Below, piece after piece: positions 1 to 61,050 of a stretch of DNA of 64,000 bases. Each line of letters opens with the position of its first letter. The first letter of the stretch is position 1. The stretch is from contig WFNB01000014.1 of the NCBI GenBank assembly GCA_015488755.1, forward strand, positions 1 to 64,000, given 5' to 3'. The stretch is from Gammaproteobacteria bacterium (GTDB lineage: Bacteria > Pseudomonadota > Gammaproteobacteria > GRL18). Position numbers and translations under genes: made by a program. The notes beneath the pieces were generated by a model. The model was given only the letters and a program-made list of their open reading frames with translations. It searched no databases and was not told the origin of the DNA.

Positions 1-408
1 TAATTAACTATTTCAGTATCTCGACCTTTAAATCAAAATGTAACTCTCCAGTCCCTTATGTATGAAATTGATAAATTTAATGTAAGCAAATTGGTTACAG
101 TTGTCAAATTGAGTTTTAAAACTAAATAAATCAGTTGAATCGTAGCGAGAATGATCAGAGTGCTGGAGATACAAGGATTTACAGGTTATTTTGGCTTTAT
201 TCGTAGTCACCCTTGTATAATGAAGTCAAAATATTCTGCAAAGCCTTGTAGATTCAGTACTATGGACATTCGCAGTAGGTTCAACTGATTTATTTAGGTT
301 AAAGCCTACGCCGATTCAACTCTGAAGTGCAACACAGGAAATTCCAGTTCTTGAAAATAAGTTCAAAATATTGATTAGTCTCGTTCCTTATCCGCATAGA
401 AACAGATA
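1..408. other. Non-coding region downstream of yqaA
   Basis: I see no convincing gene here. Short open frames exist on the minus strand, but they lack ribosome sites and protein-like composition. The stretch contains one large inverted repeat (listed separately) and AT-rich sequence. I see no clear terminator for the long minus-strand gene cluster that ends at 409. Confidence 0.6.
119..300. repeat. Palindromic repeat, long form with about 125-base insert
   Basis: The outer arms are 119-139 and 280-300, complementary at 20 of 21 positions and sharing the core CTAAATAAATCAGTTGAA. The 140-base interior has a second, imperfect inverted repeat near 160-184 and 237-261, each carrying an ACAAGG/CCTTGT core. 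A compact version with the same arms lies at 28388-28443. There the sequence passes directly from TCGTAGCGAG to TAGG, which are the two flanks of the extra DNA here. The simplest reading is one dispersed element seen once with and once without an insertion. No coding capacity is visible. Confidence 0.75.
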
Positions 409-26582: not shown

Positions 26583-26674
26583 ACCTAAATAAAGCCTTTG
26601 ATTTATTGTATAATGAGGCCATTACCCCATATTCATTTAATATGGCAAAAAATCCAAACCATTCAGGACACATA

Positions 26675-28118: not shown

Positions 28119-28349
28119 CTAAAAAACATCATCCACGGCTTTTTTTGAATCATTATATAGTTCCTCGCTCTTATCACTGACATCTTTTTGCAATTCTTTA
28201 AATTTTTTATTAAATTCAGTTAATGAACTTCTTTGCGCAAATGGGTTAGACAATAATGGCTGGTTTTTACCTAAATTCACACCAAACCACAAGCCCACTA
28301 TGCCACCAATTAATAAGCCTAATAATAAATCTTTCACAATAGAACCCAT
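28119..28349 (-). CDS. Small membrane-anchored protein, unknown
   Basis: This is a small protein of about 76 residues. One N-terminal hydrophobic helix (IVKDLLLGLLIGGIVGLWFGV) is followed by a charged helical tail (LTEFNKKFKELQKDVSDKSEELYND). The pattern resembles YtxH-like small proteins, but I cannot assign a function. ATG 28349 was chosen; a GTG at 28337 is better spaced from the GAGG at 28350-28353, and a TTG at 28379 would be longer. It is convergent with the MupP-like gene and ends near a strong palindrome. Confidence 0.6.
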   Translation of the reverse strand: MGSIVKDLLLGLLIGGIVGLWFGVNLGKNQPLLSNPFAQRSSLTEFNKKFKELQKDVSDKSEELYNDSKKAVDDVF

Positions 28350-28387
28350 CCTCAAGCTAAATAAAAAATACGTAAGCAATAACCATC

Positions 28388-28443
28388 ATCCTAAATAAAG
28401 CAGTTGAATCGTAGCGAGTAGGTTCAACTGCTTTATTTAGGAT
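28388..28443. repeat. Compact palindromic repeat, empty form
   Basis: Perfect 21-base arms (28388-28408 and 28423-28443) end in CAGTTGAA/TTCAACTG and enclose a 14-base loop TCGTAGCGAGTAGG. The same arms and loop ends occur at 119-300, where about 125 extra bases separate TCGTAGCGAG from TAGG. It lies between the small membrane gene (28349) and hpnC (28540), and would form a very stable hairpin in RNA from either strand. Confidence 0.85.
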
Positions 28444-28539
28444 CATATCAACGTAGTCATTTGATAAGCCTTGGAGTATAGTCTATTTTCATTTAAAAAG
28501 TGCAATTAATTCTCTTATTTTGGCTTAATTTAATAAAAA

Positions 28540-48396: not shown

Positions 48397-48641
48397 GTTT
48401 TCATCCCGTTCTAATGTCCGGTCGTCTCACGTCCTGATTTTACAATACCTACGGTACGTGAACCGAGTTTTCATCCCGTTCTAATGTCCGGTCGTCTCAC
48501 AAATTCAATGCGGAACCGTTATTTATTGTGATTTTGAGTTTTCATCCCGTTCTAATGTCCGGTCGTCTCACAATAAAGCAAAACTGGACTGTGATATTGA
48601 AAATCTTGTTTTCATCCCGTTCTAATGTCCGGTCGTCTCAC
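48397..48641 (-). CRISPR. CRISPR array, four repeats and three spacers
   Basis: Four identical 34-base repeats lie at 48397-48430, 48467-48500, 48538-48571 and 48608-48641. On the plus strand each begins GTTTTCATCCCG and ends CGGTCGTCTCAC. The three lower-coordinate copies also share GA just before, making 36 bases; the 48608 copy has TT instead. Spacers are 36, 37 and 36 bases and unrelated. Read on the minus strand the repeat ends in GGGATGAAAAC, like the GAAAC-type 5' handles of type III crRNAs. The array is therefore probably transcribed leftward, in line with the cas operon that ends at 48891. Confidence 0.95.
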
Positions 48642-60823: not shown

Positions 60824-61009
60824 TAACCTGAACTTTGGATAAGATGATCTTGAAATAACTTCAGAGTGTTGATTAGCCTGTATTTGTGAAAGAAGTCTCT
60901 TTGGCATGGATGCCAAAGTGAAGCCTACAAGGATGTATTTACGGCGACTTCTGTAACAAATGCAGGCTAATCAATACCTTACTAATTCAATTATCCAGAA
61001 CTCAGGTTA
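60824..61009. repeat. Large nested palindromic element
   Basis: Three nested inverted repeats share one centre region. Outer arms are 60824-60842 and 60991-61009 (16 of 19 paired). Middle arms lie near 60866-60897 and 60946-60978, built on GATTAGCCTG/CAGGCTAATC. An inner hairpin CTTTGGCATGGATGCCAAAG spans 60899-60918. The right part of the centre (CCTACAAGGATGTATTTACG) resembles a repeat I recall from many gammaproteobacterial genomes. It lies between metZ and the DUF1853 gene and may terminate metZ. Confidence 0.75.
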
Positions 61010-61050
61010 TTTAAGGATAACTCTGTGTAGTACCTACCTATGAGTAACTA

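Follow-up and report, generated by a model that had tools for sequence, protein, structure and literature searches.

A palindromic MITE family with a full-length and a probably internally deleted copy in one gammaproteobacterial window, and its likely IS1380-like mobiliser

This analysis revealed that two hairpins of the window (the whole stretch of 64,000 nucleotides under study) carry the same 19-bp arms. Very probably, one is a full-length copy and the other an internally deleted copy within a single family of non-autonomous MITEs, which is probably mobilised in trans. The initial annotation had described a single palindrome in two states and had assigned it to a mobile hairpin family. Both statements hold: the two states lie at 121-298 and 28390-28441 (Table 1), and the family is recognised by dispersed copies, 5-bp duplications and unoccupied sites. 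In the mechanism that we propose, other elements would encode a DDE transposase belonging to an IS1380-like subgroup, and this enzyme would bind the MITE ends in trans and move the MITE to an NTNAN target, which would be duplicated on repair. The 52-bp copy would have arisen after insertion, when the interior was lost between short matching bases, a kind of loss to which palindromic DNA is prone during replication. The genome of the window would have obtained its present variant from another genus and would now be without the transposase, and its copies are probably stranded unless the enzyme is supplied again.

Table 1. Coordinates of the MITE features in the window
Feature	Position	Strand	Basis or remark
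Full-length MITE copy, 178-bp imperfect palindrome	121..298	.	interior matches to copies in the same genome, folding
Left terminal inverted repeat, long form	121..139	+	first base A, consensus C
Right terminal inverted repeat, long form	280..298	-	
Left 5-bp target site duplication TTAAA, long form	116..120	.	
Right 5-bp target site duplication TTAAA, long form	299..303	.	
Long-form interior, continuing the imperfect palindrome	150..275	.	taken earlier for an insert
52-bp MITE copy, best read as internally deleted	28390..28441	.	between divergent genes
Short-form arms	28390-28408 and 28423-28441		
Left 5-bp target site duplication ATCAT, short form	28385..28389	.	
Right 5-bp target site duplication ATCAT, short form	28442..28446	.	
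Possible decayed solo end, uncertain	26584..26602	+	3 mismatches over 18 bases, TTAAA before it

The terminal repeats are 19 bp long in both forms, with the family consensus CCTAAATAAATCAGTTGAA. The ends of the long form read (A/C)CTAAATAAATCAGTTGAA, and those of the short form are identical except at one position that is altered in both arms: arm position 11 is T in the long form and G in the short form, and the opposite arm is changed correspondingly. This difference had been described as an A/T change in mid-arm, which was incorrect. The arms themselves had been recognised correctly, but their reported length of 21 bases included flanking letters of the direct repeats, which are perfect and 5 bp long at both hairpins (TTAAA beside the long form and ATCAT beside the short one). 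With up to three mismatches allowed, the arm pattern occurs five times in the window, compared with 0.71 expected and a maximum of four in 100 shuffles. When folded as single-stranded DNA and compared with 200 shuffles, the long form reached z = -9.7 and the short form z = -11.0. The sole ORF overlapping 121-298 is a mechanical one of 60 aa; a coding reading of the interior was considered, both halves of which open with ATG when read inward. The window showed no Rfam match at the gathering score, nor did the element match anything in the plasmid collection. The long copy is located downstream of an ORF that runs leftward and ends at 409. Two divergent start codons, at 28349 (leftward) and 28540 (rightward), flank the short copy at distances of approximately 40 and 100 bp. 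The window also contains a second MITE-like palindrome at 60826-61016, with ends like ACCTGAACTTTGGATAA / TTATCCAGAACTCAGGT, a relative of which adjoins an arm remnant in locus L022, as well as a short CRISPR-like array at 48397-48641, comprising four direct repeats GTTTTCATCCCGTTCTAATGTCCGGTCGTCTCAC spaced by 70-71 bases.

The genome of the window (3.53 Mb in 122 contigs) was searched with the arms and with the interior alone, as the initial annotation had suggested. Arms proved to be numerous, and the interior (140-279) gave 39 matches at E up to 10. Fifteen of these are direct matches at E 1e-8 or better, a count that leaves out one self-complementary palindrome match in the same E range; the other rows either are self-complementary as well or have E > 0.03. 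An arm within two mismatches adjoins 14 of the 15, and the fifteenth (contig C109, L041) belongs to a decayed copy whose arms are degraded. Among the other complete copies in this genome, five share 89-91% identity with the interior of the long form and a sixth shares 76%. Elements with two arms (at most four mismatches) number nine, seven of 175-178 bp and two short ones of 43 and 52 bp. The target-site duplications proposed as a check are present in all nine as identical 5-bp flanks. A tenth element, a 37-bp stub (L017), falls below the length limit, and its flanks agree at 4/5 positions by eye. In L007 (1-197) and L011 (1-329), on contigs C47 and C69, a MITE copy appears to be split by an insertion with the 8-bp repeat GCTGGAGA, the border of which looks like that of an IS66-type element.

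With regard to other genomes, the element was matched at E up to 0.001 in 21 of 40, the window's own included; all 21 belong to the window's own family and to 3 of 20 genera. When named genomes were scanned for exact occurrences of the arm, at least 115 stretches were found, mostly from uncultured Gammaproteobacteria, and among the arm matches listed are MAGs labelled Methylomonas, Methylococcales, Cellvibrionaceae and Thiohalomonas, and one labelled Saprospiraceae. The pooled set comprises 103 distinct elements of 38-300 bp with both arms within four mismatches. Their 5-bp flanks are identical in 73 cases and agree at 4/5 positions in 18, together 91 of 103, the rate of such agreement or better in random 5-mer pairs being 0.023; the remainder agree at 3/5 (four), 2/5 (three), 1/5 (two) or no position (one), or run off the contig (two). 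By length, 59 elements measure 170-182 bp, seven are shorter than 70 bp, 15 fall at 70-169 bp and 22 exceed 182 bp, with element length variants spanning 43-279 bp. The family displays the features of a MITE, namely terminal repeats, a constant 5-bp duplication, a short body without a transposase gene, and dispersed copies with empty sites, together with a related autonomous transposon with similar ends, found in relatives and not in the window's genome.

The frequency of these duplications bears on the possibility that the hairpins are of the REP/BIME type and are moved by a Y1 (RAYT) transposase; a REP-associated Y1 had been named in the initial annotation as a transposase to look for. The elements are indeed short intergenic palindromes, and the genome of the window contains four Y1 matches. 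Nevertheless, to our knowledge no target duplications are expected of REP/BIME elements with RAYT, whereas duplications at 4/5 or better accompany the great majority of the pooled elements, and none of the four Y1 loci contains an arm at up to four mismatches. We regard a Y1 origin as almost certainly wrong.

As some longer elements have quite different interiors, the ends define a group that is larger than one interior. Seven loci from Methylomonas-labelled MAGs (L109, L110, L117, L118, L140, L146 and L149) have the same ends around an unrelated interior of 238-241 bp, of which L140 also holds a 45-bp stub. Two long arm pairs, of 1647 bp (L111) and 1710 bp (L128), were considered as autonomous elements and rejected, as the DNA that they enclose consists of ordinary genes, or of a MITE together with a stray end; a pair of 3224 bp (L174) is listed as a possible autonomous element.

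Empty sites and unoccupied orthologous regions show that these elements insert. The joined flanks of 84 elements were searched against the collected loci, and three elements matched unoccupied sites: the matches were clean for L181 (to L074) and L100 (to L135), while in that of L135 (to L100) the right flank has diverged. In the four other rows of this search, the flanks had matched the loci from which they came. All five alignable sister genomes (L228, L229, L230, L231 and L236) lack the short hairpin between the two genes that flank it in the window; the alignments are only about 66-72% identical there, and the exact target base is unreadable. This mobility, seen in the insertion duplications and the unoccupied sister sites, argues against use as transcription terminators or regulatory sites as the reason why the hairpins are maintained and their spread was selected. 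The strength of the hairpins and the position of the short form between two divergent start codons would suit such a role, which we nonetheless find highly improbable as an explanation of the family.

The initial annotation had counted about 125 bases splitting GCGAG from TAGG, in good agreement with the 126 bases found (GCGAG ends at 149 and TAGG starts at 276), and had regarded the long version either as a founder form or as the host of a small nested element. In the latter case, the ancestral mobile unit would be the short hairpin, into which a second small element would have inserted to give the long form. The interior does have its own inverted repeat, and a GC-rich hairpin of about 23 bp occurs mid-element in some copies of other genomes. 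However, no target duplication was found at the junctions of the interior in the long form, and the arms and the interior form a single continuous imperfect palindrome; on these two grounds the interior was rejected as a nested element, and the proximity of its genomic matches to an arm points the same way. Without the arms, the inner halves are still 65% identical, compared with a mean of 50% and a maximum of 59% in 200 shuffles. Furthermore, approximately 176 bp is the commonest length (59/103), and the 52-bp core, at up to three mismatches, occurs only once in 24 genomes of the family. Taken as a whole, a nested origin is very unlikely, and the founder reading of the long version stands. 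Either in full or in part, the GC-rich hairpin (CCCCAAGGGCACTTCCTTCGGGG or its complement) was seen mid-element in some MITE copies and also in remnants (L100, L164, L142 twice, L120 and L005); it is a genuine candidate for a nested insert of small size, and is absent from the window's copy.

Given that its core is unique among the 24 genomes, internal deletion of the long form is the best reading of the short form. The left part as far as GCGAG and the right part starting at AGTAGG are both preserved in it, overlapping by 2 bases, which is the pattern expected of an internal deletion. When ten shorter elements, the short form included, were compared with a full-length copy, their junctions fell at differing places, and 2-5 overlapping bases were present in six of the ten, two-base overlaps being singly within chance; four of the ten do not fit a simple deletion of the full-length parent compared. 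A 45-bp stub occurs at two sites (L140 and L185, Methylomonas-labelled or pooled contigs), which reflects either repeated deletion or movement of the stub; the window's short form, too, may have moved as such. With regard to the arms, nine changes are found in both arms and 44 in one arm only (49 elements), shuffles giving a mean of 1.0 two-arm changes and a maximum of 5 in 1000. Four of the nine come from related copies of one genome; without that genome, the counts are five and 40 (45 elements). The pattern, as if one arm had corrected the other, is suggestive only. Matched two-arm changes in single copies were seen in the window's short form (28390-28441) and in L265.

The CCTA ends, together with AT-rich duplications of 5 bp, are reminiscent of ISEcp1, a member of the IS1380 family, and PF13701 was therefore searched first. 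No PF13701 transposase was found in the genome of the window by profile or protein search. Within the family, 8 of 24 genomes match this profile, five of them above the cut-off. Locus L187 contains an IS of 1688 bp with a TTAAT duplication and the ends CCTAAATTAATCACTT/CCTATTTTAATCAGTT, the transposase of which is broken by a stop, and L186 contains an open transposase of 522 aa (PF13701 E 3e-19; best NCBIfam match IS1380). The IS proteins score 122.7, 104 and 83.2 bits and remain below the NCBIfam IS1380 cut-off of 180; judged by sequence, the linked transposases look like a diverged IS1380 subgroup, hence the term IS1380-like. One genome (G002) has 34 transposase matches, many of which are fragments at contig ends.

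The ends of these ISs resemble the MITE arms in the pattern CCTA....AATCAGTT. The arm occurs within three mismatches 12 times in 41 IS loci, compared with a mean of 0.11 and a maximum of 1 for 100 scrambled arms, although several of the 12 are copies of one IS and so not independent. No autonomous element carrying the arms exactly was detected, and even the nearest IS ends deviate at 3 of 19 positions. By eye, MITE and IS showed no common interior beyond the ends, and no locus other than the IS loci gave a transposase match. The best evidence comes from the target: among the five flanking bases, the second is T and the fourth is A (NTNAN) at 21 of 22 IS ends and in 97 of 102 MITEs, against background rates of 0.103 and 0.09, and the lone exception among the IS ends (L223) looks like a chance match away from an IS. 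Because this rule is common to both, IS and MITE point to the same kind of transposase. The ends and 5-bp duplications are also as found in IS1380 elements, as expected of an IS1380 derivative. An IS1380-like DDE transposase of related genomes is thus the likely mobiliser, by which we infer that the MITE is moved in trans. Of the two transposase types that the initial annotation had pointed to, the REP-associated Y1 type was not borne out, and the IS type was found, in relatives.

A different transposase that produces 5-bp duplications, for instance one of the Tn3 family or of another DDE family, would be an unlikely mobiliser. Tn3-family elements also give 5-bp AT-rich duplications, according to the accessible part of PMC4133298, and the profile searches covered PF13701 and PF01797 only. 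Tn3 ends, however, start with GGGG in the portion of PMC7864471 available to us, in contrast to CCTA here, and the IS1380-like elements match the MITE in both end sequence and NTNAN target.

The distribution of the copies suggests exchange between genera. A tree was built from 47 copies hand-picked from the matches of the 40-genome search: seven from the window's genome, 22 from nine other species of its own genus and 18 from six species of another genus, g3. Six of the seven full copies of the window's genome group with g3 copies and one (C104, L040) with its own genus; the dividing fork has a support of 75/99, from a bootstrap that had not settled and a short alignment. The window-genome copies are on average 91% identical to g3 copies and 84% to own-genus copies. 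No such closeness is seen in dnaE, which is 75-78% identical to the own genus and 73-77% to g3 (main matches). Identical MITE copies also occur in different g3 species. Cross-genus transfer is the simplest reading; several g3 genomes appear to be MAGs with a common naming scheme, and some mixing between their bins may have occurred. A broader reading joins repeated horizontal transfer of a transposase-free palindrome between genera, hairpin-driven shrinkage to stubs of 43-52 bp, copying of mutations from arm to arm and persistence in genomes without any matching transposase; as a whole, we consider it possible but rather doubtful.

Through these results, two puzzling hairpins become part of a defined mobile family, with its borders and target rule known and a likely transposase at hand; the family could serve to test trans mobilisation by IS1380-type transposases. 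The results also suggest that full-length palindromic MITEs can decay to bare hairpins, which would otherwise be mistaken for terminators or REP elements. In the literature searched, which left subscription papers mostly outside its scope, neither an IS1380-linked MITE nor the arm sequence was found. The MITE family is ordinary but well supported and includes an unusually clear full-length/deleted pair; what is new is the family, not the kind of element.

Several known systems resemble this family in part. REP/BIME elements with RAYT are likewise intergenic hairpins, and differ from this MITE in the target duplications found here. TIMEs, which the available text of PMC4133298 presents as Tn3-derived miniature elements, share its 5-bp AT-rich duplications and mobilisation in trans, but the Tn3-type ends are absent here. 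For ISEcp1, the accessible sections of PMC7864471 give the IRL as CCTAGATTCTACGT, an IRR whose complement starts with CCTAAAT, and 5-bp duplications; the CCTA-starting ends and the duplications correspond to those of the MITE, which differs from the IS1380 family in having no transposase, while the linked transposases stay under the NCBIfam cut-off. Among bacterial MITEs, those of Thiomargarita have been described (PMC4853749, in the part available), and MITEAba12, as presented in the available part of PMC6382973, is short and non-coding, with terminal repeats, 9-bp target duplications and presumed mobilisation in trans. As far as these sources extend, MITEAba12 and other bacterial MITEs are like the present family in being short, non-coding elements with terminal repeats and target duplications, spread across related species. 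In contrast to MITEAba12, with its other ends and 9-bp duplication, the family described here duplicates 5 bp, is palindromic throughout and exists in many length variants.
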